DNA from: Pectobacterium parmentieri
GTDB lineage: Bacteria > Pseudomonadota > Gammaproteobacteria > Enterobacterales > Enterobacteriaceae
Assembly: GCF_001742145.1 (NCBI RefSeq)
Contig: NZ_CP015749.1
Span: forward strand, 3,844,001 to 3,908,000
Direction: 5' to 3'
DNA length: 64,000 bases
Position numbers and translations under genes: made by a program. The notes under the pieces were generated by a model. It did not search any database. It saw nothing but the letters and a program-made list of their open reading frames with translations, and was not told the DNA's origin. Each line of letters opens with the position of its first letter. Within the stretch, counting starts at the first letter, position 1. Below are positions 31,397-45,466 of this stretch, piece by piece.

Positions 31397-32281
31397 TTAT
31401 CTCCGGGTCTTGCCATCAGAGCTGGCAATAGTGCCGTACATTTCCGGGCGGCGGTCGCGGAACAGGCCCCACGACGCACGCTGCGCAGCAATCGCTTCTA
31501 AATCAAATTCATGCACTAGAATGGCTTCGTCCGTCTTATTGGCCTGTGCCAACAGCGCACCGGTTTGATCGGCGATGAAGGACGAACCGTAGAACGTCAT
31601 TTCCAGACCGTCGATGTATTTGCTGGCTTCCGTACCGATGCGGTTGGATGCGATCACCGGCACCAGATTCGCGGCGGCGTGCCCTTGCTGAACGCGGGTC
31701 CAGTGCGGCTGGCTGTCGATATCTGGGTAAGCTGGCTCAGAACCAATGGCGGTCGGATAGAAAATCAGCTCTGCGCCCTGCAACGCCAGGCTGCGTGCGG
31801 TTTCCGGGAACCACTGATCCCAGCAAATACCCACGCCGATTTTCGCGTAGCGCGTCTGCCAGACTTTAAAGCCAGTGTCGCCCGGAATGAAGAATTGCTT
31901 CTCCTGATACGCCGGGCCGTTAGGAATGTGGGTTTTGCGGTAAACGTCCAACACGGAACCATCCGCATCAATCATCACCAGCGAGTTGTAATAGGCGTTA
32001 TTGGCACGCTCAAAGAAGCTCAGCGGCAGCACCACATTCAGCTCCGCCGCCAGTGCGGAGAAGTGCTTAATCAACGGGCTGGTTTCCAGCTCCTGCGCCA
32101 GCGCATAGTGCTCCGGGCTCTGATCGATACAAAAATACGGGGCGGCAAACAGTTCCTGAATCAGGATAACCTGTGCGCCTTTTGTATGCGCTTGTCGCAC
32201 CAGTTTTTCAGCGTTTTCGATATTCTTGGGCAGATCCCAGGAACACGCCATTTGTGTTGCGGCAACGGTAACTTTTTTCAT
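31397..32281 (-). CDS. aguB: N-carbamoylputrescine amidase AguB
   Basis: Converts N-carbamoylputrescine to putrescine, CO2 and ammonia, completing the agmatine route. A nitrilase-superfamily enzyme of 294 residues with the Glu-Lys-Cys triad in LIQELFAAPYF, YRKTHIPNG and VGICWDQWFPE. First gene of aguBA. Upstream on the minus strand an AT-rich TATATATCG element and GAGG precede the start. Putrescine made this way is relevant to stress and virulence in plant pathogens, though that is not visible here. Confidence 0.96.
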   Translation of the reverse strand: MKKVTVAATQMACSWDLPKNIENAEKLVRQAHTKGAQVILIQELFAAPYFCIDQSPEHYALAQELETSPLIKHFSALAAELNVVLPLSFFERANNAYYNSLVMIDADGSVLDVYRKTHIPNGPAYQEKQFFIPGDTGFKVWQTRYAKIGVGICWDQWFPETARSLALQGAELIFYPTAIGSEPAYPDIDSQPHWTRVQQGHAAANLVPVIASNRIGTEASKYIDGLEMTFYGSSFIADQTGALLAQANKTDEAILVHEFDLEAIAAQRASWGLFRDRRPEMYGTIASSDGKTRR

Positions 32282-32542
32282 GCGAAAACCTCAATAATAA
32301 CGATATATACCCGCCCTTTCTCACCGGCAAGTATCGGCAATAAGTGTTTCTCTCGGTCACAATTATTCATTGGCGCTTTCCAGCGCGGCCTTAACGAGTG
32401 TAGGACATCACGCCAGCGCATGCCCAATAGGCGTATCCTGTTAAGATATTGACCGAGAATGACATGCGCATTATGCCAGTTAATGACGGCACGTCACTAC
32501 GTCGAAGAATGATCTCGCCTGACAGGTTCGCAGGATGAAGAA

Positions 32543-32817
32543 GAGGACCGATAACCAACAGTGCAGGATTACAGTTCACCGTGAAGGTCGGCGCGTTGCC
32601 GGATCGTCACGCGCGACTGGACAGCGTCTGGCTGGATGAATCGACCAGTCTGGTGCACTATACCTACAATACGCAAAGTCAGGTGGCTACCGTCACCAGG
32701 CAGGCGGTAGCGTGCACCGCCGTTTTACCTGTCATGATGGCCAGCGAACGGCCAGCTTAACGAATATCAGTGGCAGAGAGTGCTCGATAATATTGAGGCA
32801 AGTCGGAGGATCCTCTA
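32543..32817 (+). pseudogene. Remnant of a vgrG start fused to rhs fragments
   Basis: Positions 32543-32599 closely match the first codons and ribosome-binding site of the vgrG at the right end of the island, in opposite orientation: AGAGGAC, then AACAGTGCAGGATTACAGTT translating [15 protein letters not shown]. It then runs into Rhs-like sequence (WLDESTSLVHYTYNTQSQVA) and, after a frame change, NEYQWQRVLDNIEASR, like the YD-repeat region of Rhs proteins. There is no intact reading frame. It marks the left end of the island. Confidence 0.7.
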
Positions 32818-32864
32818 ACTTCTCGAATATAAAATAATGAATCATTAAAGAGATTGTGATATTT

Positions 32865-33122
32865 ATGAATAAAGACGAGCTAAGAGATAGACTTATAAAA
32901 GAAAAAATATCGAGATCTTTATATTCTTTAGATGGGGGTTTGCCGGATGAAAAACTATGTCTCGACCGCGAGAATGGCTATTGGGTTGTTTATTATTCAG
33001 AAAGAGGAATAAAAACTGGAATGATAAATTTCCCAACAGAGAATGAAGCATGCCAATATATATATGATCAGATTAATGAAATTATTATTGATAAAACAAA
33101 TAATAGCCGAAAGCGGTCTTAA
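32865..33122 (+). CDS. Small orphan immunity-like protein
   Basis: 85 residues from the ATG at 32865 (a GTG at 32856 is possible). Hydrophilic, acidic/basic mixed, with the block YSLDGGLPDEKLCLDRENGY followed by WVVYYSERGIKTG, a pattern I associate with small bacterial immunity proteins of polymorphic toxin systems, from memory. AT-rich, unlike the neighbouring chromosome, and placed directly after a rhs remnant, as expected for a leftover immunity gene whose toxin tip has been lost. Function unproven. Confidence 0.6.
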   Translation: MNKDELRDRLIKEKISRSLYSLDGGLPDEKLCLDRENGYWVVYYSERGIKTGMINFPTENEACQYIYDQINEIIIDKTNNSRKRS

Positions 33123-33206
33123 CGCATCTTAAGGTTAATCTCTGAGGACAGGTTGGGCTTGCCCTGCTACTGGTGATCGATTGATCGCCGGGAAGCGACG
33201 CTGGGA

Positions 33207-33791
33207 ATGCGAAATAAAAAAATGAATATAGATAAAAGCATATGTAAGTTAGTTAGTTTTTTCAAACTTAACGAAAGTAATATGGGTAGGATGGATTATC
33301 AAGTTGAGGGGATTCCAAACTTGCGGTGCGAAATACCTTTAAATGGAGAAATCCTTCATTTCTATACACATACGTTACTTGAGGATAAACCAACTTTTCA
33401 TGGAGGTGCTTACTTACAACTTATTGAAATTGATGAACTATCTAATATTCTGTTAGGATGGCGTTCATCTGAGGAAAATGATGCTTGGAATGATGATTTT
33501 ATAATATTTGCTGAACGTAATGGTGATGTTCTTTATTGCGATTTATCAGATATTACGTCGCCGGTATATGGAAGTATCCAGAAAAGGAACTTTCAGATTT
33601 CAAATTCACTAAGTGAATTCATTGAAATTTATACAAAAGTTTTAAAAATAGAGATTGAAGATTTTTATTGTGATGTTACTGATGATGATTTTAATTTCAA
33701 ACCGGAATATTTATTGGCTGTGGAAAATGAGTTGAAGAAAGTGCTTTCTTCTGAATTTGTTGCTAATTACATGCTGTTTTTCTATGAATAA
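33207..33791 (+). CDS. Probable SUKH (SMI1/KNR4)-like immunity protein
   Basis: 194 residues if read from 33207; an ATG at 33222 (MNIDKSICKL) is an alternative. No signal peptide or membrane segment. The middle (ILLGWRSSEENDAWNDDFII, FAERNGDVLYCDLSD) and the C-terminal helical end resemble SUKH-superfamily immunity proteins, which neutralise nuclease and other toxins by direct binding. AT-rich and isolated, without a toxin gene next to it, so probably an orphan. Assignment to SUKH is by pattern only. Confidence 0.6.
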   Translation: MRNKKMNIDKSICKLVSFFKLNESNMGRMDYQVEGIPNLRCEIPLNGEILHFYTHTLLEDKPTFHGGAYLQLIEIDELSNILLGWRSSEENDAWNDDFIIFAERNGDVLYCDLSDITSPVYGSIQKRNFQISNSLSEFIEIYTKVLKIEIEDFYCDVTDDDFNFKPEYLLAVENELKKVLSSEFVANYMLFFYE

Positions 33792-34284
33792 TATTCAATA
33801 ATATGATTCGGATAGCGGAAAATATATCTATAAGTCCTTCAGGAATAACGTGGCATAATCACGAGGGTGTAAATAGACTCGTTTTATACTCGCGATACCT
33901 TAAGTTGCATGTGTGTTAGTTGCGCTACTCGACTCACATGGGCCTGGTCCTGCTGAGGTCGCTGCAAGCAGCGTTCAAACCTATCTCTGGCAGATTTGCC
34001 CACTCGTCCTAATACTTATCTGAGCAAACTCATCGAGACTCAATGAGAGATATCCTGTCTCTTATCGAAGGCCGGTCGTTGTGTGGCCAAGCTCGTTCCC
34101 GACGAGTTTGTCCTTTGCTTACCACGTTATTCGGCCTTATGGCCTCAGCCCTTCGGGGTCAGCGTAAACACAGTTCAAAAGCGTCTTACTGCCTTTGTCC
34201 TGAAAATCGAATTATTTAGAATATAGTTGATCATCAGACTCATTCTGCAAATCACGATCTTTATCATCCAACAGAAAAAAACAC
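33792..34284. other. Noncoding spacer with a degenerate palindromic-repeat half
   Basis: 493 bp without a supported gene. At 33894-33945 is a half copy of the palindromic repeat seen at 26988-27182 (ACCTTAAGTTGCATGTGTGTT). Further right is GC-richer filler with a small hairpin (CAGCCCTTCGGGGTCAG near 34147). It probably reflects repeated insertions and deletions in the island. Confidence 0.5.
33894..33945. repeat. Half copy of the intergenic palindromic repeat
   Basis: Aligns to the right arm of the 26988-27182 repeat read on the opposite strand, including TGCATGTG(T/C)GTT and the TACTCG(A/G)CTCA segment. The other arm is missing. Confidence 0.5.
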
Positions 34285-34638
34285 ATGCAAATAGTAAAAA
34301 AAGAGAAAATAAAATTATCCGACTTTATCGTCTTTGTTAAAAATAACATTAAAATAGTTAAGGAAGATTTTTGCTTATATTGTGAAAACTCTGATGAACC
34401 ACTATCTCAAGATACGTGGTGTTATGTTGATGAATATCCTACCGGAGATGATAATGGGAATGATGTTTTCTCTGATTTTGTTGTGAATAATGATTTGGAG
34501 TTACTCTATTATGGTGAGCAGTTCACTGATGTTATAAACAATGTATTAATGCAAGAAGATGAACCTGATATTTATATCATAATTGAGGCACTTAATTATT
34601 ATATGGAAAATGATGATTTTTTGGATTTTGATAAGTGA
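34285..34638 (+). CDS. Acidic orphan immunity-like protein
   Basis: 117 residues, very acidic, no signal peptide. The segment DFCLYCENSDEPLSQDTWCY has paired cysteines, followed by an Asp-rich loop (DEYPTGDDNGNDVF) and a helical end (IIIEALNYYMENDDFLDF). It resembles a small domain (DUF7716, from memory) found in polymorphic toxin loci. Strong acidity is common among inhibitors of nucleases. AT-rich; transcribed rightward, facing the SUKH gene at 34695-35057. Confidence 0.55.
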   Translation: MQIVKKEKIKLSDFIVFVKNNIKIVKEDFCLYCENSDEPLSQDTWCYVDEYPTGDDNGNDVFSDFVVNNDLELLYYGEQFTDVINNVLMQEDEPDIYIIIEALNYYMENDDFLDFDK

Positions 34639-34694
34639 TTTTAAATTTAATAACCGAAAAGATCTTTACGATTGCTTTCGACTATATTTCAAGA

Positions 34695-35057
34695 CTAGGT
34701 ACGTAAGTTATAAATATCTTGAGATTCTTCATCCATATCTAAACTACCAAGAGCACCAAGATCTAAACTATAAACTTTATCATCATTATCACTCAGATAA
34801 ATAAAATATCCTATATCACCATCTTGGCCAATTAAAAAATAATCAGGCTCAACATCCCGTATTGTATAGGTTTCGTTTCTTTCAAGCACATCGTGGTAGT
34901 TGAAAATATAAATGAGACCTCCCTGAGAGTTTTTTATTTCATAACATTCATTTTCGACAACTTCTTCAGATAAAAAACATTTATATTTTTCAGGCAGTTT
35001 TTTATCTAAAATTTTTTCTATATCAGCTAATTTTTCCATCACTTCATTCTTTTTCAA
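34695..35057 (-). CDS. SMI1/KNR4 (SUKH-1) family immunity protein
   Basis: 120 residues with the classic SUKH-1 layout: N-terminal helix with IEKILDKKLPEKYKCFLSE, then YIFNYHDVLERNETY, the central strand motif FLIGQDGDIGYFIYLSDND and VYSLDLGALG. These cytosolic proteins bind and inhibit diverse toxin tips. Immediately upstream on the same strand are only degenerate pieces of an immunity gene and a Rhs C-terminus, so this is an orphan or a protector against sibling toxins. Confidence 0.82.
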   Translation of the reverse strand: MKKNEVMEKLADIEKILDKKLPEKYKCFLSEEVVENECYEIKNSQGGLIYIFNYHDVLERNETYTIRDVEPDYFLIGQDGDIGYFIYLSDNDDKVYSLDLGALGSLDMDEESQDIYNLRT

Positions 35058-35072
35058 AAAACCTCGAATTTA

Positions 35073-35232
35073 TTAAATATAAAAAAACTGATTTACGATA
35101 TTACTTTCCCTCAACCCATAAAAGTATTCATATCCATCACTAATGGCTTTCTTAGCCTGTCCAGAAATAATTTCAACGTCAAACATCCCTCTATAGATAA
35201 TATTTAACTATTTTTTCAAAGCAATACTCCAT
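35073..35232 (-). pseudogene. Frameshifted remnant of a small immunity-like gene
   Basis: Two adjacent reading frames join into one plausible small protein: MEYCFEKIVKYYL, then after a one-base shift RGMFDVEIISGQAKKAISDG and a short tail ending NQFFYI. No intact start-to-stop frame exists. It lies just after the truncated Rhs end at 35340, the usual place of an immunity gene. Confidence 0.35.
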
Positions 35233-35339
35233 TCCCCAGCATAACTCTTCTCGCTCGTTGGGTCACACTAAATTTAGCATGAAGACTACCTGATGCAGAT
35301 TTTAATAATGTAACGAGAACTGAGTTTTTCTGATCCCCT

Positions 35340-35610
35340 CTAATTATTTTCTTCGTCCAACGGTTCTATCAAGTCAGGCGAGATATAACAACCACCGTCC
35401 GGATCATAATACCTAAAACGGTTATAACGTAAGCCACTTTCTTCGTCACGACATTGCCCGGCAAAAACCAGTCCCGGATCGTGTTTTTCAGCTTTCTCCG
35501 TATAGCACTGGCCCCATAAGTTAGCGCGCGGGCCTGCCAGCAAAGCTCACCGGTCTGGTTGCTCATATCGTCATACTCATAGCGTGCCTAGGTCTGGCCA
35601 CCATAAATGC
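35340..35610 (-). pseudogene. Truncated and frameshifted rhs 3' fragment
   Basis: Contains the end of the Rhs core: NQTGELCWQA, then (after a shift) ANLWGQCYTEKAEKHDPGL and YNRFRYYDPDGGCYISPDL. Compared with the longer rhs at 42972-45446, one C is missing in the run before GCGCGC (about 35529), which breaks the frame. Further upstream the text jumps from YEYDD straight to NQTGEL, an internal deletion of roughly 1.9 kb relative to the longer rhs. A stop (EENN*) follows the core where a toxin tip should start. Confidence 0.75.
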
Positions 35611-35628
35611 ACTGTATTTAGTGTGAGA

Positions 35629-36054
35629 CTAATAAAACAGACTAAACCATTTGCTCCACCAAGTTTTTTGATAAATATTAATTTTGAAGGCATCTCCATA
35701 GCCGTCAATGAGTAAATTAAAGTTATCTTTTTTTCCTTCATATTCATCACCAGGAAAAACAAAAAGAATTGGATTCAGATCGTAGCGATTAATAAAATAA
35801 AATGGTGATGATTGGCCTATGTACTTTTCATCCCTATCATATAGAACTATATAAACTACAGACCCATCAATAGAAAAAATATGATAAAAATACAGCGGAC
35901 TAAAAGGAAATGGATTGTAAGTAACAGCTTTATAATATTTGTCTTTTGAGTAAAACTCGTCGACTTTGTTATAGGTTAAATTAAAAGAAACTGGAGAGAG
36001 TATGAAAACGTAAGAAAACAAAATGAGATAAATTGCCAGTCGTTTTTTTTTCAT
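35629..36054 (-). CDS. Membrane-anchored 141-aa protein, second copy
   Basis: Near-identical paralogue of the protein at 45467-45892. An N-terminal hydrophobic stretch (LAIYLILFSYVFILSPVSF, residues ~5-23) is a signal anchor or uncleaved signal, followed by a periplasmic domain with YNPFPFSPLYFYHIF and FINRYDLNPILFVFPGDEY. Possibly DUF6201, a family seen near type VI secretion cargo genes (from memory). Here the upstream partner is broken, so this intact copy is an orphan, perhaps kept as immunity. Confidence 0.7.
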   Translation of the reverse strand: MKKKRLAIYLILFSYVFILSPVSFNLTYNKVDEFYSKDKYYKAVTYNPFPFSPLYFYHIFSIDGSVVYIVLYDRDEKYIGQSSPFYFINRYDLNPILFVFPGDEYEGKKDNFNLLIDGYGDAFKINIYQKTWWSKWFSLFY

Positions 36055-36061
36055 AAAAAAA

Positions 36062-36379
36062 TCATCCTTTTCTTTTCAGATGGAAGGGTCCAGAAAACAT
36101 CAGAAAAACTATAAAATCCGCTCCTGAGTTATGCTTACCCTGCCATTTTCTAAAATCTGAATTCCATACAGGAACAAAATCAAAATATTCTCTTGCCAGA
36201 AACCCAAACACCCCTACGCTATATGATGATAAATATATTGGCGTTTCTGCTTTTGTAAGAATATAACCTTTACCCCAAACCCCTAGCGGTTCTGGTTTCT
36301 CCATATCGATAGCGTTTATTATTTTTTCATCAACAAAGCCATAAGTATCCTTAATGTATTTGCCGATAGCCTTCCCCAC
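36062..36379 (-). pseudogene. C-terminal fragment of the 296-aa island protein, second copy
   Basis: Matches the last ~100 residues of the protein at 45889-46779 (YIKDTYGFVDEKI, PEPLGVWGKGYILTKAET, REYFDFVPVWNSDFRKWQ). One A is missing in a run near 36104 relative to the intact copy, so the end is frameshifted (MFSGPFHLKRKG). At its 5' side the sequence switches to a Rhs junction (ATAGGGGGGTTGGGTGGGGA), out of frame. So this fragment was joined to a rhs end by recombination. Confidence 0.75.
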
Positions 36380-36518
36380 CCAACCCCCCTATTGGGCCAA
36401 GTACAACAATCTAGCCTTCTGGCGAATCGTACTATCTGTTTCAACCATAAGTGGATTTCATCCAGTCGTCATAATGTAGGAAATCACCCATGCTACCGCC
36501 TATCCACGAGGGAGTTAA

Positions 36519-36767
36519 GGTATATTCTAAGTCAGGCTTTACCGTTACGTTACTATACCGTGGGATACGCCCCGCACAAACCTGTTATAAACAGGTTTGT
36601 GCGGGCGAGTCTCAAAATGAGACGAGTAAAACGGCAGGCCCAGCCCGCCGTCGGCGATTAACCTTAAAGGCCGCTGGCTGGAAGAGTCGGGGTTTATGAC
36701 CGGGATGCCCATCACTATTACCGTTGAGCGCGGGAGACTGGTGATTGAGGCGGAGATTAACCTCTGA
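36519..36767 (+). pseudogene. Decayed symE-like gene, copy A
   Basis: The C-terminal SymE signature is intact in one frame (LKGRWLEESGFMTGMPITIT then VERGRLVIEAEINL, stop 36765-36767). The start codon is lost and about 20 bases are missing near 36545 compared with copies C and D. SymE proteins are AbrB-fold SOS toxins frequently found next to rhs genes. Confidence 0.75.
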
Positions 36768-36791
36768 CGCCGCACACGATAAACAGCGGAT

Positions 36792-36834
36792 AAAATAAAG
36801 CCTGAAGGATCGTTAAGATCGCTTCCGGTTTATT
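36792..36834. terminator. Hairpin after symE copy A
   Basis: AAATAAAGCC.GAAGGATC...GATCGCTTCCGG.TTTATT; the same hairpin follows all four symE copies and also ends the immunity genes transcribed from the other side. Confidence 0.75.
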
Positions 36835-37276
36835 ATAACCTAAAAGATTTTTTTATATTATTTTTACTTTCTTTTGATAGAGCAAACGATATGTATATAT
36901 TGCTATCAACTCTCTTAAACCTTACTGCATAATTTTCTGGTGGCAACTTGATAAAATAACCAGATACACTACTTATATCATCAGGTTCTAGATCGCCACC
37001 TGTAGTATCCTCACCTGCGCCAATGAATATATTTCCTGACGGAACATTAATATATGCAACATCATCATAATCATTTAAAGATTCAACAATATTTATCAAA
37101 TACTCGCCATCGCTGCCTAAATTTAAAAAAACAGCGTTACCATTATTGATTTCATCTATTTCATCCTCCTCGATACTCCACCAATCAGCCGTATCCGTAA
37201 TGCGATGCTTAAGTGATTGCAGATCAAATATAACTATCGTTGCTGTATCCGTAAAAATATTGAAGTTGATATTCAT
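36833..37276 (-). CDS. Immunity-like protein of the Rhs array
   Basis: 147 residues, acidic, no signal. Conserved-looking segments are TDTATIVIFDLQSLKHRITD, TADWWSIEEDEIDEINNGN and IFIGAGEDTTGGDLEPDD. It may belong to DUF6386 (from memory; unverified). It follows a toxin-tip remnant (37285-37450) at 8 bp distance on the same strand, the standard order toxin then immunity. Faces a degenerate symE. Confidence 0.65.
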   Translation of the reverse strand: MNINFNIFTDTATIVIFDLQSLKHRITDTADWWSIEEDEIDEINNGNAVFLNLGSDGEYLINIVESLNDYDDVAYINVPSGNIFIGAGEDTTGGDLEPDDISSVSGYFIKLPPENYAVRFKRVDSNIYISFALSKESKNNIKKSFRL

Positions 37277-37284
37277 TTCATGCC

Positions 37285-37563
37285 TCAGTTAAATATTATC
37301 GCACTTATTTTATCACCAGGTTGAAGTCCTGCTTTTCTTCCTGCATTTTTAAGATCACTACCAACACTTTTGTTAATGGTTTCATTCAACATTTGCAAGC
37401 GCTGCTCGCCGTTCTGGACACTTTCGTTAAGAAGGCAATGATGGAACAGGTGATGAACATCACCAGTAAACGATATCTTCGCCCACCATAAGTAACCAAA
37501 AGGAGTTGTTGCTATGGCTGCACATGATTCCACATCATGCAACACAGTAAATAAAGCGACCAA
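37285..37563 (-). pseudogene. Remnant of a Rhs toxin tip
   Basis: Only the C-terminal part looks genuine: GEQRLQMLNETINKSVGSDL and GRKAGLQPGDKISAIIFN, directly ahead of an immunity-like gene. The upstream part runs into the antisense of symE copy B and has no Rhs core. The toxin type cannot be recognised. Confidence 0.5.
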
Positions 37564-37805
37564 AACAGAACGTTACTACACGGTGGGATACGCCCCGCAC
37601 ACATCTGTTATAAACAGGTTTGAACAGCTTTAGCTGGCCCGCAGGGCGGGTCTCAAAATGAGACGAGTAAAACGGCAAGCCCAACCCGCCATCCGCCATC
37701 CGCCATCCGCCATCCGCCATCAACCTTAAAGGCCGCTGGCTGGAGGCATCGTGATTTATGACTGAGATGCCGATTATCGGAGTGAGACTGCTGATTGAGA
37801 CGGCT
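37550..37805 (+). pseudogene. Decayed symE-like gene, copy B, with expanded 7-bp repeat
   Basis: Matches the other symE copies from KATKTERYYTVGYAPHTSV onward but lacks the first ~16 codons and has a stop after NRFEQL. Where copies C and D have two CCGCC(A/G)T units, this copy has five perfect CCGCCAT units (37686-37720). The C-terminal half is further damaged (ASRDL, deletion near ITITVE). Confidence 0.7.
37686..37720. repeat. CCGCCAT x5 microsatellite
   Basis: Five perfect copies of a 7-bp unit inside symE copy B; the paralogous position in copies C and D has two units. Confidence 0.9.
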
Positions 37806-37828
37806 CACACTATACGTAATAAATAACG

Positions 37829-37875
37829 AAAAAATAAAGCTGGAAAAATCATTTATATCTCTTCCGGGTTTTATC
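37829..37875. terminator. Degenerate hairpin after symE copy B
   Basis: AAAAAATAAAGCTGGAAAAATC...TCTTCCGGGTTTTATCTATTT, a weakened version of the hairpin after the other symE copies. Confidence 0.5.
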
Positions 37876-37888
37876 TATTTAAACGTTA

Positions 37889-38332
37889 TCAACGTTTAAA
37901 AAAACTATTCTTTTTAGATATGTCTATGTTAATTTTTTGAATAAGAATATCTGATCTAGGATCAATAACATTCATGTCTTCATCAATAATGATTAAATCA
38001 CGGTCACATAGCGACCTAATCATGCTATGTAAAATAGGAAGGTCGCTATTTCTAAGATCAACTCTTAGCTTGATTTCGATTAACTCCTTATCGTCGAACA
38101 TTATTGCAATACAATCTTTATCATAATCACCGAAAAAAACCGTCTCTTTATCCCAATGTTTGTTTTTTTCTAAGTAATTTACTCCTCTAATTAAAATATC
38201 TTCTTGACCGAATTCATAAAACCACTTTATTTCATTAAAATCATCTTCAGTGATTTTTTTTGGTACATTCCCATACCTACTAACTAAAGCATGTTTAGGG
38301 ACAGCCCAAAATGAATATTGCCAAAATGCCAT
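37889..38332 (-). CDS. Probable immunity protein to the ParB-like Rhs tip
   Basis: 147 residues from the ATG at 38332 (AGGTG at the correct distance inside the end of the toxin gene). A small cytosolic protein with MAFWQYSFWAVPKHAL, an acidic middle (FFGDYDKDCIAIMFDDKELI) and a basic tail (ISKKNSFFKR). No family recognised. Its start is 11 bp after the toxin stop, so the two form a linked toxin-immunity pair. Confidence 0.7.
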   Translation of the reverse strand: MAFWQYSFWAVPKHALVSRYGNVPKKITEDDFNEIKWFYEFGQEDILIRGVNYLEKNKHWDKETVFFGDYDKDCIAIMFDDKELIEIKLRVDLRNSDLPILHSMIRSLCDRDLIIIDEDMNVIDPRSDILIQKINIDISKKNSFFKR

Positions 38333-38343
38333 AATTTTTACAC

Positions 38344-38767
38344 CTACAAGTATCGCCAATATCCAGGTATTCGTATAACTTCATCAAATAAATCAGCGGA
38401 TGTATTATAGCCACGGAATGGTAATTCAACTTTCTCAACAGGAACACTTTCTATTCCAAGATTTTTGGCTGAAAAATATCGATGATGCCCATCAACTATG
38501 TACATTTTTCCATCGTGCGTTACATATTTTATAGATTCATTGATTTTACCATCAGACTTGATTGCATCTAATAACTTCCTCATTTCATTTTTAGATTTAT
38601 TAGGCGAATGTGTTGGTATTAGATCACTGACATTTGCTGTTTCACAACCAGCCAACCCAAACGGATCAACCCAACTGACAGGGTTATGCACATACCCATA
38701 GTTATTATCACCTCCCGCTATCCCTATCGGATCAAGTGCAACAATCCAGCCTTCTGGCGAGTAGTAC
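38344..38767 (-). CDS. Displaced Rhs C-terminal tip with ParB-like nuclease domain
   Basis: An orphan tip without the Rhs shell. The first part is Rhs core end: [41 protein letters not shown], the usual junction before a toxin. The toxin that follows (~100 residues) has [20 protein letters not shown], the DGHHR motif of ParB/sulfiredoxin-fold nucleases, ending [15 protein letters not shown] stop codon (TAG) just before YYSP separates it from any rhs core. It would need recombination with a full rhs to be delivered. In-frame ATG at 38691. Confidence 0.72.
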
Positions 38768-38854
38768 TACTGTTTTAGCCATAAGTGGCTTTTATCCAGT
38801 CGTCATAATGTCGTAAATCATCCATGCTACCGCCTATCCACGAGAGAGTTAATC

Positions 38855-39149
38855 ATGGCTAAGGCACATTCTAAGTCAGGTGTCACCGTTAACAAAGCAA
38901 CCAAAACAGAATGTTACTACACCGTGGGATACGCCCTGCACAAACCTGTTATAAACAGGTTTGAACAGCGTTAGCTGGCCCGCAGGGCGAGTCTCAAAAT
39001 GAGACGAGTAAAACGGCAGGCCCAACCCGCCGTCCGCCATCAACCTTAAAAGCCGCTGGCTGGAAGAGTCGGGGTTTATGACGGGGATGCCGATAACCGT
39101 GACGGTGGAGCGGGGCAGGCTGATTATTGAGACGGAGATTAATCTGTAG
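38855..39149 (+). pseudogene. Decayed symE-like gene, copy C
   Basis: Starts MAKAHSKSGVTVNKATKTEC and reads YYTVGYALHKPVINRFEQR before a TAG at 38972-38974. The SymE C-terminal half (INLKSRWLEESGFMTGMPIT, VTVERGRLIIETEINL, stop 39147-39149) is in another frame; total length 295 bp is not a multiple of three. About 98% like copy D including ~115 bp upstream. Confidence 0.8.
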
Positions 39150-39167
39150 CGTTTGGCCAAGATATAA

Positions 39168-39216
39168 AATAAAAAGCCGGAAGGATCGTTGGGATCACTT
39201 CCGGATTTTATTTATT
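39168..39216. terminator. Hairpin after symE copy C
   Basis: AAATAAAAAGCCGGAAGGATCGTT...GATCACTTCCGGATTTTATTTATTTT; A and T tracts on both sides allow termination in both directions. Confidence 0.8.
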
Positions 39217-39648
39217 TTATAAATTATTATCAATAGATGCCACGTATGTTTTCGCTTTTACTGACAAAAATAAATCATTTCCAATGAAAACATATCCTAA
39301 TGATTCATTATTTTCATCAATCTCTTCATAAACACCGGTATGAAGATCAGAACCATTAGTATAATTAGATAAACCTGATGCTTTGTCAGTACAAAAAAAT
39401 AAATCGAAAAATTTAAATTCAAAATTAGCCATTCTATACCCAGCATTATTATACACTTCATCAGGCATATCTGATTCGTCATTTAACTTATTGAGTTTAA
39501 GGTAGCTATCAATATCTTTTTTTAGACCATCCATACCTAAAAAAACCAAAAAACGTACATTCAGACAGACTCCAGAATAAGAGAAAAATGGTTCAGATAC
39601 ACTTTCCATAACCCACGGGAACTTAATATTTCTTAGTAAAAACCTCAT
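39217..39648 (-). CDS. Probable immunity protein of the displaced Rhs tip at 39645-40166
   Basis: 143 residues with no recognised family; segments LKKDIDSYLKLNKLNDESDM, NFEFKFFDLFFCTDKASGLS and the C-terminal strands LGYVFIGNDLFLSVKAKTYV. Its ATG overlaps the toxin stop as ATGA, so translation is coupled. The gene is intact although the toxin carries a nonsense codon, which is usual for immunity genes retained as protection. Confidence 0.68.
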   Translation of the reverse strand: MRFLLRNIKFPWVMESVSEPFFSYSGVCLNVRFLVFLGMDGLKKDIDSYLKLNKLNDESDMPDEVYNNAGYRMANFEFKFFDLFFCTDKASGLSNYTNGSDLHTGVYEEIDENNESLGYVFIGNDLFLSVKAKTYVASIDNNL

Positions 39649-40166
39649 TTAGCCAACCTAATAATATCAAGAATAGTGTTATTGTTTGGTCCTGGTGTAA
39701 TAGGGATAGACGATCCAGGCATGGAGAAAACCTCACCTCGTTGTCTTAGAGGAATTTCCTTTAATCGATTAAGCAATGTTTCTGTTACTGGAACTTCTTT
39801 TAATACCGTTGGCTTCATTCCAGCGGCAGATATTGCTGCTAGTGTCCTATTACTCTCAGCTATCCTTTGGCCTGTTTGAGGATGGATAAAATAGCTAACA
39901 GGTAATTGGTCTGTATGCAACACACCACTTTTGAAATCACCAGCAACATCATAGATACTTCACCCCCGAATATAGTCAGGCGCATCAGAATCAACATTCC
40001 TAAATGTATCACTGATTCTTTTTTGGCCGAAAAGTAAATCACAACCAACCAACCCAAACGGATCAACCCGACTGACAGGGTTATGCACATACCCATAGTT
40101 ATTATCACCTCCCGCTATCCCTATCGGGTCAAGTGCAACAATCCAGCCTTCTGGCGAGTAGTACTA
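39645..40166 (-). pseudogene. Displaced Rhs C-terminal tip interrupted by UGA
   Basis: Begins as Rhs core end ([33 protein letters not shown]) then a toxin region: [26 protein letters not shown], a TGA at 39960-39962, and in the same frame SIYDVAGDFKSGVLHTDQLP, YFIHPQTGQRIAESNRTLAA and GPNNNTILDIIRLAK. The frame is otherwise open, so a single substitution explains the break. The distal part (39645-39923) could still be made from an internal start. Toxin activity not recognised. Confidence 0.65.
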
Positions 40167-40252
40167 CCTGTTTTAGCCATAAGTGGCTTTTATCCAGTCG
40201 TCATAATGTCGTAAATCATCCATGCTACCGCCTATCCACGAGAGAGTTAATC

Positions 40253-40547
40253 ATGGCTAAGGCACATTCTAAGTCAGGTGTCACCGTTAACAAAGCAACC
40301 AAAACAGAATGTTACTACACCGTGGTATACGCACCGCACAAACCTGTTGTAAACAGGTTTGAACAGCGTTAGCTCGCCCGCAGGGCGAGTCTCAAAAGGA
40401 GACGAGTAAAACGGCAAGCCCAACCCGCCGTCCGCCATCAACCTCAAGGGCCGCTGGCTCGAAGAGTCGGGATTTATGACGGGGATGCCTATCACTATTA
40501 CCGTGGAGCGGGGCGGACTGGTAATTGAGGCGGAGATTAATCTGTAG
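40253..40547 (+). pseudogene. Decayed symE-like gene, copy D
   Basis: Same structure as copy C: MAKAHSKSGVTVNKATKTEC, stop after NRFEQR (40370-40372), and the SymE C-terminal signature in a different frame (GRWLEESGFMTGMPITITVE, GLVIEAEINL, stop 40545-40547). Length 295 bp. Copies C and D share the same inactivating changes, so they arose by duplication after decay. Confidence 0.8.
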
Positions 40548-40557
40548 ATGGAGGATA

Positions 40558-40600
40558 ATAAAAAGCCGGAAGGATCGTTGCGATCGTTTCCGGCTTTATT
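40558..40600. terminator. Hairpin after symE copy D
   Basis: AATAAAAAGCCGGAA ggatcgttgcgatcg TTTCCGGCTTTATT, with an inner GATCG/CGATC pairing; serves both symE and the immunity gene that ends at 40603. Confidence 0.85.
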
Positions 40601-40602
40601 CT

Positions 40603-41133
40603 CTAGAATTTCTCAAAAATGATATTATCAGGAGGGAAATTATTAGGAAATGAGTTTGCTTTTATTTTTCTCGATAAAATACCGGATAATAACGAAGTTA
40701 TACTTTTATCAAAATATTCTATATCTGGTGATCTAGATGCAACTATTGCAGTTCCCCATGCATCGCTATTATTTAGATCGGAAACGACCCAGAATATATA
40801 ATCACCATTATCTGTTACACCTATTGGTAAAAGCCCATTCTTTTCTGGGTAAAGGTTATACTTAAAATAGTCTGGATCTTCATTATTAAGATATTTAAAA
40901 TCATCAATAATTAATTTATTTTTCTCAAAAAAGTTAAGATCATTATTTTGAGTAAATGGATTGAATATTGCAATGAAATTAGCGATTATCCCCGAGCCAT
41001 AGTTACTGATAAACTCAATATAATCATTAGGAAACGTAGTGCTTTCACCTATATAAGGCCAAGCATTACCGCTCCCAGACTCATTGGGGATATCAGGTGG
41101 AACTAAAATTCTATTTAATTTAGGTATGGCCAT
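40603..41133 (-). CDS. SUKH-like immunity protein for the endonuclease tip
   Basis: 176 residues with the SUKH look: FPNDYIEFISNYGSGIIANF near residue 35, then NPFTQNNDLNFFEKN, LLPIGVTDNGDYIFWVVSDL and a C-terminal helix. The equivalent of the classic 'lp.dY..fl..yG.G' motif is clear. It lies 3 bp after the endonuclease-like toxin gene, so it is its likely inhibitor. Confidence 0.75.
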   Translation of the reverse strand: MAIPKLNRILVPPDIPNESGSGNAWPYIGESTTFPNDYIEFISNYGSGIIANFIAIFNPFTQNNDLNFFEKNKLIIDDFKYLNNEDPDYFKYNLYPEKNGLLPIGVTDNGDYIFWVVSDLNNSDAWGTAIVASRSPDIEYFDKSITSLLSGILSRKIKANSFPNNFPPDNIIFEKF

Positions 41134-41136
41134 GGT

Positions 41137-41535
41137 TTACATTCCAGGAGGATTAAGAAGAGTGACACTTTCAAAAAAGCCGCCACTGCCTTGAGCATTC
41201 ATTGTTATACCTGCCGGTATCCTAGAAGGACCTTTATATATAGGTGTGACCGACACATCAACTATTTCTCCTCGTTCTAACGCTTTCCTTATACGCCCTT
41301 CGATACTGCTCATATCCGGAGTATTCACTGGCCGATGTTGAATGGTAACCAAGTTACGAACATCATCGCCGGAACAGCCTAACTGCCGCCCTAACAAATG
41401 TCCACGAGCACGATTAGAACCAGCTCCTGTAATAAATCCGGGAGGTTGAATCGAAGGATTAGCATGCGTGCCCGTATTTATGTAACTAGAGTCTAGCCGA
41501 GCTCTAACACCTGTTGGGCGTCCTAGGTGATCCAA
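41137..41535 (-). CDS. Rhs toxin tip, DNA/RNA non-specific endonuclease type
   Basis: About 130 residues. The core RARGHLLGRQLGCSGDDVRN followed by LVTIQHRPVNTPDMSSIEGR is the pattern of endonuclease NS-like toxin tips (R-G-H catalytic motif and downstream N for metal binding). It should follow the Rhs junction ...NPLSW directly, but a one-base shift near 41530 puts it out of frame with the rhs remnant upstream. No normal start codon (only TTG at 41535), so as it stands it is probably not expressed as a full effector. Confidence 0.72.
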   Translation of the reverse strand: MDHLGRPTGVRARLDSSYINTGTHANPSIQPPGFITGAGSNRARGHLLGRQLGCSGDDVRNLVTIQHRPVNTPDMSSIEGRIRKALERGEIVDVSVTPIYKGPSRIPAGITMNAQGSGGFFESVTLLNPPGM

Positions 41536-41935
41536 CTCAGCGGATTCGGCACATACCCGTAATTACTTTCCCCACCCAATACCCCTATCGGGTCAGGCGA
41601 AACGTAGCATCCACCGTTCGGGTCATAGTACCGAAAACGGTTATAACATAGCCCGCTTTCGCTGTCACGATACTGTCCGGCAAAGCCAAGGCTGGGGTCG
41701 GTATTGTCTTCGGCAGAGCTCTGTTGCTGCTGCACTATTGTGAACCCAGTGCAGTCGTGAGACGAGCTCACCGTTGCGATGATGGAGTACTTCGGCTATC
41801 TGGTCGCCGTCCCACAGGTAGTCAATATTATCCTGCGTCTGGTCGCAGCGTTTGCCAATACGTCGCCCGAATGGATCGTAACGGTAGAACCAGCGTTCTC
41901 CGTTCGACACATCAGCTATCCATCGTTGGTTAAGG
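41523..41935 (-). pseudogene. Internally deleted rhs core fragment
   Basis: Reads NGERWFYRYDPFGRRIGKRC, LWDGDQIAEVLHHRNGELVS, RLHWVHN, then jumps to a second frame with DPSLGFAGQYRDSESGLCYN, RFRYYDPNGGCYVSPDPIGV and NYGYVPNPLSWIT*. About 55 residues present in the longer rhs between the two parts are missing and the frame changes at the scar. Confidence 0.78.
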
Positions 41936-42053
41936 TAGCCTTGACGATAAGCCGGAATAGCAATATAGGACAGTTAGCGAAGCGCAATCCATCATTTATA
42001 GACAGACTTACGACCCATTCGACGGATTAGGCCTTCAGTTGCCTCCAGCTAGC

Positions 42054-42722
42054 TTAATCAGGAAGGTATGAATATATTCGTTCAGATGACAAATGGAGAT
42101 ATTCCTTCTTTATTTCATCAAAATAGACTGAGGACACCTTAAACGCTTCTCTGGAACCAATACTCACTATATAAAACCCATGCTGATTAATAGCCAAGAA
42201 ATCTCCATCTTCCAAATCGCGCAAGTAGATCATAAGATCTTTACCTACTAAAACCTCATGGACCTCACTTTCATTAAATTTTAAAATACCCAACTCTGTT
42301 AAAGAGTTTTTTACTTCCTTACTCGATTTTTCGTATTTTACTCTACTCGAATCAATATTTAGAGTATCCACATCAAAACTACATTTTTTTATGTTTATAT
42401 CAGCATTAACTCCAGCCACGAGACCAGAGTGAAAATAAAACTCTAGTACAACATTCCTCCTTGATTTTTTATCAAAAACAGTCACCCCAGAAATAGAAAA
42501 ACCTTTTTCATGCTTTCTTTCATACAAAGATGATATTTTTGTATTGTAAGTGACTGCAATGTAATTAGGCATCCCTCCCCCTCCTGAAAGAAGGCGGCGA
42601 ATTACACCCTCTTTTATTTGCTTCAAATAATGCTCATATTCACTAGGCATTTTGTTGAGCACTAGGGAGAATAACTGCTCGACTATAGACCTATCATTGT
42701 TAACTCTAAATATATCAAACAT
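42054..42722 (-). CDS. Probable immunity protein of the main Rhs toxin tip
   Basis: 222 residues from the ATG at 42722, six bases after AAGGAG. No signal peptide. Segments: MFDIFRVNNDRSIVEQLFSL, KEGVIRRLLSGGGGMPNYIA, and EVLVGKDLMIYLRDLEDGDF followed by LAINQHGFYIVSIG. No family recognised. It is 10 bp downstream of the toxin-tip frame, so it most likely protects against that nuclease. Confidence 0.68.
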   Translation of the reverse strand: MFDIFRVNNDRSIVEQLFSLVLNKMPSEYEHYLKQIKEGVIRRLLSGGGGMPNYIAVTYNTKISSLYERKHEKGFSISGVTVFDKKSRRNVVLEFYFHSGLVAGVNADINIKKCSFDVDTLNIDSSRVKYEKSSKEVKNSLTELGILKFNESEVHEVLVGKDLMIYLRDLEDGDFLAINQHGFYIVSIGSREAFKVSSVYFDEIKKEYLHLSSERIYSYLPD

Positions 42723-42732
42723 AACCAACTCC

Positions 42733-42969
42733 TTAAAACCGAGTAAACCAGTTATATTTACTAAACCAACCCACATCGGGTTTGATTTCTTTTTTTAGGA
42801 ATTTAAACCTATATTTATCAATCAAAGAATGCTGAATAGTATTAACTTTCCACACATTAACCCAATTGTTAACCAGCCAGTCAGGAAGATTAAATCTTCT
42901 TTGCAATCGCTGAGTTATAAAAACATGATGATACTCAGTACTAATACGCAGTGTCGCGCCTGACTGCAT
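42733..42969 (-). CDS. HNH-like nuclease tip of the main rhs, separated by frameshift
   Basis: This frame is the true continuation of the Rhs junction: PFGLAGCSARLSKKAQQQLF, DAYKRRRGGTETLSYIKMQS and then STEYHHVFITQRLQRRFNLP, DWLVNNWVNVWKVNTIQHSL, IDKYRFKFLKKEIK. The EYHH...P.WL.N..N.....I.H pattern resembles HNH/AHH nucleases of toxin tips. An internal ATG at 42969 gives 78 residues, but the whole tip is about 107 residues after PFGLAGC. It is out of frame with the rhs core because of one missing base at 43127-43139. Confidence 0.65.
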   Translation of the reverse strand: MQSGATLRISTEYHHVFITQRLQRRFNLPDWLVNNWVNVWKVNTIQHSLIDKYRFKFLKKEIKPDVGWFSKYNWFTRF

Positions 42970-42971
42970 TT

Positions 42972-45446
42972 TTATGTAGCTGAGGGTTTCTGTCCCTCCT
43001 CGTCTTCTTTTGTATGCATCAAATAACTGCTGTTGAGCCTTTTTCGATAATCTCGCACTGCAACCAGCAAGCCCAAACGGATCAACCCAATCGAGCGGAT
43101 TATGGACATACCCGTAATTACTCTCACCCCCAACCCCCCTATCGGGTCAGGTGAGATATAACAACCACCGCTCGGGTCATAATACCTAAAACGGTTATAG
43201 CATAAGCCGCTTTCGTCGTCACGGTATTGCCCGGCAAAGGCCAGACCTGGATCGTGTTTTTCAGCCTTGCCCGTATAGCGCTGGCCCCATAAGTTAGCGC
43301 GCGGGGCCTGCCAGCGCAGTTCACCGGTCTGGTTGAAAATAGCCTGCGGTTCACCGTTATGGCCGCTGGTGACAAAGTCCGTTTCCCAACTTTCGTCGGC
43401 GTTCTGACGCTGCTGCACCAGCAGCTCCCAGCCGTTGTGCACCCAGTGGCGGCGGCTGACAAGCTGATTGTCGCGATAGTGCCGTACTTCGGCTATCTGG
43501 TCGCCGTCCCACAGATAGCGGATAGCTTCGGCTGTCTGGTCGCAGCGTTTGCCGATGCGCCGTCCGAACGGGTCGTAGCGGTAGAACCAGCGTTCACCGT
43601 TTGGCGTGTCCACTACCCGCAACTGGTTGCGGCTGTCCCAGCGGTAGTGCCACACCTGTGGCCGATAGCCCGGTTGCACCACCTGCCTGCGAATGAGCCG
43701 CCCGGCCTTGTCGTACTGATAGTGAGTGTTGTCCTGCTGGGTCAGGCGTCCGGCCTGCCAGTCGGTCAGCCTTGTCGCATCCTGCGGCAGCCCACTGCGG
43801 GTGTAGCGGTATTGCTCTTCGGTGTTGACGGTGCGCCCTCCACCACCGCTCAGTACCGACAGCACCCGTCCGCTGGCATCCAGTCGGTAACCTGCCGCTT
43901 CGCGGTTGCGTCGGGTGCCCGTCAGGTTACCCGCGCCGTCGTAGAGGTATTCCCGCGTCTGTACCGGCTGCAGGCGACCGTCTACCGTCTGCCCGCTCAT
44001 CTCGCGCGTCAGCCAGCCCATCGTGTCGTATTCACGCCGCTGTATAAAACCGCCCGGGCTGTGGCGGGTGGCTTCCCGCCCAGCCGCATCGTGAGTCAGT
44101 GTCAGCTCGGCGCCATCCGGCAACTGCACCTGATGCAGTTCGCCCGTGGCGCGGTAGCGGAAGGTGCTGGTGAGTGCCGCGCTGTCCTCTTCGCCTTCCC
44201 AGTGCAGGCTGCGGGTAACGGTGTGCGATGCGTCCTGATAGTGGCGTCGGATTGCCGTGCCGCTGTTATGCTCCTGTACCACCCGGTCACGCTCGTCATA
44301 CGCCAACTGGACATGACTGGTGGTCGATGTCACGTCGGTCAGTCGACCGGCCGCATCATAGCGGTAATACAGCGTATCGTCCGGCGCGGTTTCTTTGATA
44401 AGCAGGCCGCGCCCGTCGTACAGAAAGTGGCGGATTTCCCCTTCGCCATTGCGCACGCTGATGCAGTGCCCGTCTTCGTCATAGCCGTAGTGGGTTTCCG
44501 TACCGGCCATGTCCCGCTCACGGATAACCCGCGCATCGGCATCCAGCCACCACTGCCAGCGGTTGCCATCCGGTGCGGTGACACCAATCAGTTGCTGACT
44601 GTCTTTATCGTAGTCGTACTGCCAGATGCGGCCTTCGGCGTCGGTGCGTGAAGTCAGCAGGTCGAACGGGCCGTAGGTTTGCTGCCAGACCGCACCGTTG
44701 CCGTCGGTGTAGTTCAGCAGGTTGTTATGCTTGTCGTACTGGCGTTTTTCCTCTTTCTCGTCCGGGCGTATCAGTTGCTCCGGCAGTCGCCAGCTTGCCC
44801 GGCGATAACCCAGCCGATACGTTGCCCCATCCGGGCGTGTCCAGCTCGTGAGTCTGTCCTGCTGGTCGTAGCGCAGTTGCTGAGTGCGGGCTTCCGCATC
44901 GGTGGCGCTCAGCAGGCGCTGACGGTGGTCGTAAAACAGGCTGGCCTGCACGTGTCCATTCTGGTCGCTCACTTCGGTCAGCAGGCCGTAGCGGTTCCAC
45001 GCAAAGCGGACTTCGCTCGCATCCGGCCCGGTCAGACTCAGCGGGTTGCCGTTATTGTCGTACTGCCAGACCCAACGGCGCCCCAGCGGGTCGGTAATAC
45101 CGATAAGTCGCTCGTGGTCGCCATAGGCATAGTGCCACGCGTGGCCGCTGCCGTCGGTAAAGGTGCTGACCAGCCCGCTGTCGCCGAGATAGGCAAATTC
45201 CACTGCCCGACCCGCCGGGGAAATTTCCCGCAGCAGGTTGCCCACATCGTCATACTCATAGCGGGTGAGATGGCCGAGCGGGGATTTTTCCCACGCCATC
45301 AGGTACAGGTCGTTGAAACCGTATTCATGGCGCTGCCCCAGCCCGTCAGTCATCACCACGCGGTCAGTCAGGTACTCGAAATTCGCCGTCAGGTAGCCAT
45401 CGGCACAGGTGGTGTAGATACAGCGTCCCTGATGGTCGCCATCCAT
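42972..45446 (-). CDS. Rhs core protein, 5'-truncated and frameshifted before the toxin tip
   Basis: An 824-residue frame made of YD repeats (RYEYDDVGNLLREISPAGR, YDERDRVVQEHN, HYQYDKAGRLIRRQ) and the Rhs core end (YNRFRYYDPSGGCYISPDPI). Rhs shells encapsulate the toxin tip and are loaded on VgrG/PAAR. Full-length Rhs proteins are ~1,400 residues with an N-terminal PAAR or transmembrane part, which is missing here: the sequence starts abruptly inside the repeats with no ribosome-binding site. After DPIGGLG the frame shifts (one G missing in G6TTG5) and ends with unrelated residues. GC-rich unlike the neighbouring immunity genes. Confidence 0.85.
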   Translation of the reverse strand: MDGDHQGRCIYTTCADGYLTANFEYLTDRVVMTDGLGQRHEYGFNDLYLMAWEKSPLGHLTRYEYDDVGNLLREISPAGRAVEFAYLGDSGLVSTFTDGSGHAWHYAYGDHERLIGITDPLGRRWVWQYDNNGNPLSLTGPDASEVRFAWNRYGLLTEVSDQNGHVQASLFYDHRQRLLSATDAEARTQQLRYDQQDRLTSWTRPDGATYRLGYRRASWRLPEQLIRPDEKEEKRQYDKHNNLLNYTDGNGAVWQQTYGPFDLLTSRTDAEGRIWQYDYDKDSQQLIGVTAPDGNRWQWWLDADARVIRERDMAGTETHYGYDEDGHCISVRNGEGEIRHFLYDGRGLLIKETAPDDTLYYRYDAAGRLTDVTSTTSHVQLAYDERDRVVQEHNSGTAIRRHYQDASHTVTRSLHWEGEEDSAALTSTFRYRATGELHQVQLPDGAELTLTHDAAGREATRHSPGGFIQRREYDTMGWLTREMSGQTVDGRLQPVQTREYLYDGAGNLTGTRRNREAAGYRLDASGRVLSVLSGGGGRTVNTEEQYRYTRSGLPQDATRLTDWQAGRLTQQDNTHYQYDKAGRLIRRQVVQPGYRPQVWHYRWDSRNQLRVVDTPNGERWFYRYDPFGRRIGKRCDQTAEAIRYLWDGDQIAEVRHYRDNQLVSRRHWVHNGWELLVQQRQNADESWETDFVTSGHNGEPQAIFNQTGELRWQAPRANLWGQRYTGKAEKHDPGLAFAGQYRDDESGLCYNRFRYYDPSGGCYISPDPIGGLGVRVITGMSIIRSIGLIRLGLLVAVRDYRKRLNSSYLMHTKEDEEGQKPSAT

Positions 45447-45466
45447 GCGCTGTATTTAATGTAAGG

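Follow-up and report, generated by a model that had tools for sequence, protein, structure and literature searches.

Modules of a displaced rhs toxin tip, an immunity gene, a hairpin and a symE remnant follow one another in a 64,000-nucleotide stretch of the Pectobacterium parmentieri chromosome (contig NZ_CP015749.1; G000:C1:3844001-3908000), hereafter the window, inside a 5.03-Mb single-contig genome. We propose that these modules are the decayed remains of site-specific integrative elements that carry rhs tips, a reading to which we give a probability of roughly 0.84. At the level of sequence it is carried by the architecture of intact elements, their exact joints with rhs genes, empty and occupied sites, identical copies behind unlike rhs cores, and circular records. 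An element of about 6.6-7 kb would start at the D-P codons of the DPIG motif with a tip, an immunity gene, a hairpin and a convergent symE behind a helix-turn-helix (HTH) repressor gene. It would continue with a divergent primase, a XerC-type tyrosine recombinase (INT), about 0.9 kb and an end whose last bases, with a 6-bp spacer between (CCCTAT-GACCCG-ATAGGG), mirror those that open the rhs tail. INT would recombine the spacer of a circular form, the presumed form of transfer, with the identical six bases, codons D-P, in a chromosomal rhs gene, the primase and SymE possibly serving in maintenance. The core would thereby be joined in frame to the new tip, and the old tail, starting at DPIG without a core, would end up behind the element. 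An array would grow by repeated insertion at the same base, and loss of INT, primase and HTH gene would leave tip-immunity-hairpin-symE-end modules such as those of the window. A sister lineage would follow the same process at the V-E codons of the VENN motif in cdiA.

Intact elements and their joints

Intact relatives of about 6.6-7 kb were found in the same genome, in other Pectobacterium and in Photorhabdus, Xenorhabdus, Dickeya and Escherichia coli, with the order DPIG-tip, immunity gene, symE, HTH gene, DnaG-like primase, tyrosine recombinase and end. In the same genome, an array at 4.37-4.43 Mb holds two copies, 88% alike over 5.9 kb, in which more genes have been kept: symE lies behind an HTH gene of 133 amino acids (aa), followed by a divergent primase of 956-959 aa and a tyrosine recombinase of 347 aa, and about 0.9 kb after the latter an rhs tail begins at DPIG. 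This 45-kb array (G000:C1:4376000-4425400, loci L034-L036) comprises about 20 symE units, two of them in the intact recombinase-bearing elements. Pfam and NCBIfam searches on intact copies returned PF00589, CHC2/Toprim (DnaG-like), HTH_3 and SymE. The recombinase scored 574 bits against PRK01287 'XerC' (cut-off 371), and R172, K197/K200, H269, R272, H295 and Y304, which we take to be the catalytic residues, are invariant in all seven recombinases aligned. In some elements a DinJ/RelE pair adjoins the recombinase (L238:29-630, L241:10176-10765).

Long recombinase matches of at least 48% identity were found in 11 of the 24 other genomes of the genus, often several at a spacing of 6-8 kb; matches of lower identity (about 29-38%), such as the Xer recombinases of the cell itself would give, were listed throughout the genus. 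A scan of named genomes for the primase yielded 110 relatives, of which 80, in 70 loci, were kept; these come from Pectobacterium, Dickeya, Brenneria, Samsonia, Photorhabdus, Xenorhabdus, Citrobacter, Serratia, Mixta, Cedecea, Prodigiosinella, Pseudomonas, Stutzerimonas, Atopomonas and one archaeal record of a metagenome-assembled genome. None of the 218 phage records with any primase match covered 80% of the primase. Because an exact 17-mer of the INT end was found in just 9 of 392 genomes of the family (five of the 392 being from the genus), a single fixed sequence undercounts the elements.

The end of the Pectobacterium elements, ..CCCTAT, stands directly before the D-P-I-G codons, GA[CT]CCGATAGG; in host cores these bases are preceded by, for example, ..TCGCCG, ..ACACAG or ..TCGCCT, and the short identical core GA[CT]CCGATAGG is present at both joints of these elements. 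We surveyed 90 recombinase 3' ends, some contigs being counted twice under two locus identifiers. A tail was recognised within 2.6 kb in 43 cases, and 39 of the 43 abut D-P, or V-E in cdiA, to the base. These 39 joints are not all independent: three are, by our reading, second identifiers of contigs already counted (L166 twice, L197), and those of L242 and L243 share insertions. Tails directly behind INT ends lack any core. The other 47 ends have no recognised tail, mostly because the contig runs out; ten are flagged as ending at the motif itself, and L173 and L174 have an exact joint between end and DPLG that the search pattern missed. A preliminary description of the window, made from its sequence alone, had suggested that tips are replaced at a fixed joint and old tips moved outward, and the clustering of breakpoints at D-P or V-E agrees with this suggestion.

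The 8-bp arms flanking the spacer are complementary at 5.4 of 8 positions in 22 rhs ends and at 5.5 of 8 in 11 cdi ends, against 1.9 of 8 in 50 rhs cores and 1.7 of 8 in 9 cdi cores; eleven 'other' sites (four short ends from the same genome, another two INT ends and five VENN strays) are left aside in this count. The arms also covary, as none of 2000 shuffles of the 24 distinct arm pairs reached the observed match. Inverted arms around a 6-bp spacer are the look of a tyrosine recombinase site.

Sister recombinases, about 45-51% identical and accompanied by a primase and mostly also by symE and HTH genes, lie at cdiA-type loci. Their elements sit at the VENN codons of cdiA in L117, L121, L122, L135, L194, L205, L210 and L241, and one of these elements is carried by a conjugative Enterobacter plasmid. 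Here the element end ..GTTGTT abuts GT[TG]GAGAATAA (V-E-N-N codons), before which intact genes read ..AA[CT]GC[GT]. The relatives in Atopomonas and Pseudomonas (L195 and L196) have no rhs or VENN tail; in the frame that follows their recombinase the sequence is ..ASTGKVASGDTVGPK.., which may represent a third target. Poole et al. 2011 (PMC3150448) reported that orphan cdiA-CT/cdiI modules match precisely from VENN to the next VENN and that orphan tips are functional; they called the mechanism unknown, and neither 'integrase' nor 'recombinase' occurs in the part of their text available to us.

Identical copies, empty sites and circular records

In the Pectobacterium genome G009, a 6,591-bp element is present three times at 100% identity: one rhs locus has two copies in tandem, and another rhs gene has the third. 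Their 1-kb upstream flanks align at 63% in gapped comparison, against 60-63% for shuffled sequence, with a single 39-bp match (77%) near the joint; the ungapped identity of 33% between these core flanks was misleading and was replaced by the gapped comparison with shuffled controls. In Photorhabdus asymbiotica, one element (99.99-100% over 6.8 kb) stands behind three different sequences at the same base; one of the three is the end of another element, and blastn gave no match among the 1-kb upstream flanks. Identical tandem pairs were also found in Xenorhabdus vietnamensis (6,622 bp) and Pectobacterium aroidearum (6,705 bp).

An empty site is provided by the E. coli rhs locus that extends from ansP to pptA. 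Strain Ec-U10 has there a single full rhs gene with tip and immunity gene. Strain S10 is 99.6% identical to Ec-U10 as far as the joint and 99.8% identical once the DPIG base is reached; the intervening 15,819 bp comprise two recombinase elements, an ISEc1 copy and a core-bearing tail. The tip that is displaced in S10 is still fused to a full rhs in Ec-U10, in agreement with the outward displacement suggested in the preliminary description. Strain STW0522-31 is 99.7-99.8% identical to S10 to either side of the joint, and an additional 848 bp are present at the same base: a cassette of tip, Imm8 immunity gene and short end (L242:14196-15043), without annotated symE or recombinase. In 43 of 5,426 E. 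coli genomes this cassette is matched over 80% or more of its length. The direction at this site is presumably gain rather than loss, and the joint is exact either way. The rhs gene is annotated as frameshifted in S10 and as intact in STW0522-31. Copies of ISEc1 (H-repeat) lie inside displaced E. coli rhs tails (L242:22333-23469, 32087-33223).

Two complete circular plasmid records carry the element. That of Lonsdalea populi (11,289 bp) consists of two units, one of them without the recombinase and part of the primase, joined at two joints of element end and DPIG; it gave no match to the two rhs cores used as queries. The other, 8,758 bp long and deposited as Shigella flexneri, combines a single such joint with one tail that carries core. 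Of 5,426 complete E. coli genomes, 53 contain close matches to its recombinase gene; the 186 places concerned are all chromosomal.

In the parts of Jackson et al. 2009 (PMC2935791) available to us, rhs tips are proposed to be displaced by homologous recombination, the old tip is pushed outward, dissociated tips form arrays, and circular episomes are predicted. A circle of this type, bearing a core fragment and a tip, would recombine anywhere in the rhs core and shunt the old tip outward. It would account for the core fragments that precede DPIG in some orphan tails (U3 modules of the same genome, L118 and T5 of the window). It would also suit a second difference between S10 and STW0522-31: the tip that follows a core fragment (L243, about 19.96-20.7 kb) differs in a manner compatible with homologous exchange. 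However, a tail that keeps the core of the local rhs clade was not met directly behind INT ends, T5 being among the other tails that do retain core, and identical elements stand behind cores that align no better than shuffled DNA, so that long homology has little to act on there. As the sole route, core-bearing circles are already refuted by the core-free exact joints, and as the main explanation of the arrays we consider them improbable.

The modules of the window

Comparison of the window with itself aligned 38642-39208 with 40039-40597 over 568 bp (92.6%), and revealed further copies of this block at 36387-36834 (76%) and 37543-37774 (80-82%). The block is unbroken from the end of the rhs junction through a 115-bp stretch and symE to the hairpin: it joins the symE and hairpin of the new module to the old rhs tail, which resumes exactly at the DPIG codons. 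Secure rhs homology resumes at DPIG at 38733 and 40130, and in degenerate form at 36398. The tip-immunity pairs between the blocks are the variable parts and gave no mutual match. The whole genome contains 49 matches to the block, a recurrence far above chance; 47 of them belong to five array loci, and the other two are short strays.

These data bear out that the modules at 38.3-39.2 and 39.2-40.6 kb share one order and differ in toxin and immunity gene, as had been described. Their edges are near-identical, as was also stated, but the rhs junction and symE proved to be one contiguous block and not two sites. The supposed third module at 36.4-37.9 kb is indeed decayed; it is actually two, a symE unit at 36399-36765 with the 115-bp end and a symE at 37514-37802 with a different leader. 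The route proposed at the time, recombination between the rhs junction and symE, has to be given up, as the data fit insertion at one site, the D-P codons, with symE inside the element. A double exchange between junction and symE would draw on the conservation of both motifs around the tips. We reject it as very improbable because both belong to one block inside the inserted unit; such an exchange would delete the old tip, which therefore would not be pushed out, and the 848-bp cassette of E. coli, in which no symE is annotated, has the same base as its point of entry. Duplication of one block followed by divergence would explain the near-identical edges, but the tips and immunity genes are mutually dissimilar while the edges are 92.6% alike, and relatives of T2 and T5 stand in another order elsewhere; we regard this as the least probable explanation, with next to no likelihood.

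Several parts of the window recur in intact elements or their surroundings. The segment 36628-37404 (symE, immunity gene, tip) is 82% alike to part of the intact element L129. The segment 39012-40131 is 84.9% alike to the Pectobacterium locus L115, a similarity that ceases at the DPIG base; leftward of this base the window has a short end and L115 an rhs core. Over 40 bp, the leader at 37480-37519 is 80-82% alike to the leader that HTH-symE has in recombinase-bearing elements. A relative of T2 in one other Pectobacterium lies in an open frame of 259 codons (95.7% aa identity over 92 residues), and the SUKH immunity protein of the pair at 34654-35360 is 77% identical in aa in L115 and 54% in Xenorhabdus L207 and Photorhabdus L168. 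Within the genus, T2 is present in one other genome, whereas T1 was found at full length in its own genome only, the other 24 genomes of the genus giving partial, weak matches.

The four symE copies of the window (36.5, 37.5, 38.9 and 40.3 kb) are all broken at one shared codon by a palindrome-rich insert of about 70 bp (about 36578-36636, 37601-37670, 38942-39011 and 40340-40409), which is shortened in the 36.5-kb copy. Loci B, C, D and E of this genome together hold ten copies of the same broken allele, which was also found in G015, G012 and G010, three further genomes of the genus; weaker matches to the insert, mostly of 77-85%, are spread over the genus, with at least one in each of the 25 genomes. 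This genome has 35 matches to symE-like sequence (PF08845, the family of the intact SymE copies), some of them outside rhs arrays; many of its copies are broken, and symE is convergent to rhs in all five loci mapped. An Rfam scan of 33000-43200, where symE is broken, gave no match, and hence none to SymR in this stretch.

Because this broken allele is so widely shared, we allow for later spread by homologous recombination. That the window modules multiplied mainly in this way after one insertion, through the symE-junction block and within or between loci, is a possibility of some weight although an unlikely one. The 92.6% identity of the 568-bp block and the shared allele point to it; against it, the tips differ in every module while the DPIG joint is kept exactly. 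T2 and T5 are moreover found in opposite order in L115, which argues against inheritance as one block, even if L115, from another Pectobacterium, may be a different chromosomal locus.

The short ends deserve separate description. That at 38734-38854 has nine copies in this genome, and 27 bp of it were found in 1 of the 24 other genomes of the genus. The motif GGCGGTAGC is common to the short ends (4/4) and the E. coli INT ends; none of the 50 rhs cores contains it, nor does any of the other rhs INT ends (22) or of the cdi ends (11). Twelve codons before DPIG, the short ends (L246, L247, L248 and the window at 38733 and 40130) have TAG where rhs cores have a tyrosine codon, a regularity that is partly by construction, three of them having been found with a TAG-containing pattern. 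The pattern TAGTAYGAC N27 GAYCCGATAGG was tried as a definition of the element and rejected: it occurred in 4 of the 392 family genomes, this one and three others, and in the three others it marked degenerate rhs core.

Some observations weigh against site-specific insertion as the origin of the modules, besides the second tip difference of the E. coli pair. Four of the 43 INT ends (L176, L187, L198 and L217) have a first tail with core, and seven loci with room for a joint (L121, L167, L179, L195, L196, L209 and L240) showed no exact one. The circular records could be assembly artefacts of tandem copies. In the window, tblastn detected no remnant of INT, primase or HTH gene, and the T1/I1 and T4/I4 pairs and 42054-42776 had no match (E 1e-8) in the loci searched. 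Its short ends lack complementary arms and are not of the INT type; they comprise 36 bp in register with rhs codons, a resemblance that may be due to chance, and their DNA is common only to short ends. As no remnant of recombinase, primase or HTH gene was found and the short end is not an INT end, the window modules are held to be probable remnants of this tip-carrying family with good but less than full confidence.

The array lies between genes that, from their translations, we take to be pfkA and tpiA. Between the two lie vgrG (likewise named by translation), a PAAR gene, a DUF6402 gene with a small open reading frame (ORF), the rhs core and, leftward, the string of rhs tails (Table 1). The PAAR gene is followed by DUF6402 and is not fused to rhs. 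The end of DUF6402 and the small ORF are duplicated (35595-36372 = 45433-46211, 92%), both copies adjoining rhs core. The hairpin at 39168-39212 is likely to be a two-way terminator; a weak fold was seen at 37828-37882 (z -1.5), and a strict terminator scan of 36300-41200 found none. The HTH remnant at 37423-37491 was recognised by eye, and tblastn with HTH variants gave no match there.

Table 1. Features of the window, in window coordinates (T, tip; I, immunity-type ORF; a dot marks features without strand)
Feature	Position	Strand	Remarks
Tip/immunity pair (SUKH)	34654..35360	-	77% to L115 14127-14839, cargo of intact element
T4, displaced tail, C-terminal part of DUF6402 protein	36062..36398	-	DUF6402 named on right-hand copy (Pfam)
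Short end, decayed	36399..36515	-	abuts degenerate DPIG
symE remnant	36516..36765	+	
Hairpin	36792..36836	.	folded stretch 36788-36840, z -3.5
I3 (DUF6386)	36833..37276	-	Pfam; 79.6% aa as cargo of intact element L129
T3, rest of displaced tail	37285..37422	-	94.9% aa over 39 residues in intact element L129
Remnant, 3' end of the HTH gene that precedes symE in intact elements	37423..37491	+	compared with translation of locus L033, same genome
symE remnant, leader of intact-element type	37480..37802	+	symE itself 37514-37802
I1	37889..38359	-	no Pfam match
T1, displaced rhs tail	38344..38733	-	weak ParB-like match below Pfam cut-off
Short element or cassette end ('conserved 115 bp')	38734..38854	-	abuts DPIG base 38733; GGCGGTAGC motif
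symE remnant, convergent to rhs	38855..39149	+	broken by palindrome-rich insert
Hairpin between symE and immunity gene	39168..39212	.	folded stretch 39164-39218, z -5.3
I2	39217..39648	-	77.6% aa in L115
T2, displaced rhs tail, frame broken	39645..40130	-	
Short element or cassette end	40131..40252	-	abuts DPIG base 40130; L115 homology stops at 40131
symE remnant, same insert	40253..40547	+	
Hairpin	40557..40600	.	folded stretch 40553-40606, z -4.3
I5, SMI1/KNR4 (SUKH) family	40603..41133	-	Pfam; 83% aa in L115
T5, displaced rhs tail (DNA/RNA non-specific endonuclease)	41137..41910	-	core fragment upstream of DPIG; 96% aa in L115
rhs core of island, N-terminal part missing	42972..45446	-	
PAAR gene	46781-47305	-	NCBIfam; upstream of array
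vgrG	47329-49188	-	upstream of array

Relation to known systems

In the open-licence PMC papers examined, as far as their text was available (including PMC10743746, PMC3032704, PMC3235180, PMC4028081, PMC9933511 and PMC4231636), we found no account of an integrase acting where tips join rhs or cdiA. Zhang et al. 2012 (PMC3482391) describe XerC/D genes beside polyimmunity loci, which are immunity-only arrays and not a tip-core joint, and the part of their text at hand contains neither 'integrase' nor 'SymE'. In Neisseria, dif/XerCD sites and a short circular sequence are reported beside type VI effector genes in vgrG clusters (PMC10210955); according to the same partial source, that system relies on the host XerCD instead of an element-borne recombinase and has no rhs tip joint. 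SymE near rhs, hecA, cdi or hcp is mentioned for Dickeya, Proteus, Erwinia and Pantoea in the available portions of PMC7764402, PMC3942780, PMC8386352 and PMC11278526.

The exchange of tips in Rhs and contact-dependent inhibition (CDI) proteins has been unsettled since orphan tips were first described. We lean towards the broader view that the polymorphic toxins of two unrelated delivery systems, Rhs and CdiA, obtain new tips through a single class of integrases, self-encoded and possibly episomal, for which two codons of the delivery gene (D-P or V-E) serve as crossover spacer. The elements and the recombinase-less cassettes would then be the vehicle and the enzyme of tip exchange, and DPIG and VENN would be conserved partly as DNA recombination sites. 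If true, this would explain the position of the joint at DPIG and VENN, the presence of symE beside rhs and hecA loci and the occurrence of identical tips on unlike delivery genes. Given a recombinase with a defined six-base crossover, and strains in which the site is naturally empty or occupied, the question can be tested directly.

Integrative elements that restore the 3' end of their target gene use a tyrosine recombinase and a site inside the coding sequence, so that the target stays open. In the elements described here, the restored 3' end would be a new toxin tip with its immunity gene. SymE is known from the SymE/SymR type I toxin-antitoxin pair, whereas here it sits behind an HTH gene on a mobile element. 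The arrays resemble integron cassettes in their growth at a fixed joint, in the old cassette being pushed outward and in the existence of small recombinase-less cassettes (848 bp in E. coli). They differ from integrons in that INT rides on the element; INT scored 116 bits against the integron integrase model TIGR02249, below the cut-off of 265, and does not class as an IntI-type enzyme. With respect to the model of Jackson et al. 2009, as given in the available part of that paper, an element-borne recombinase and a fixed, core-free joint are the features that set the present element apart.

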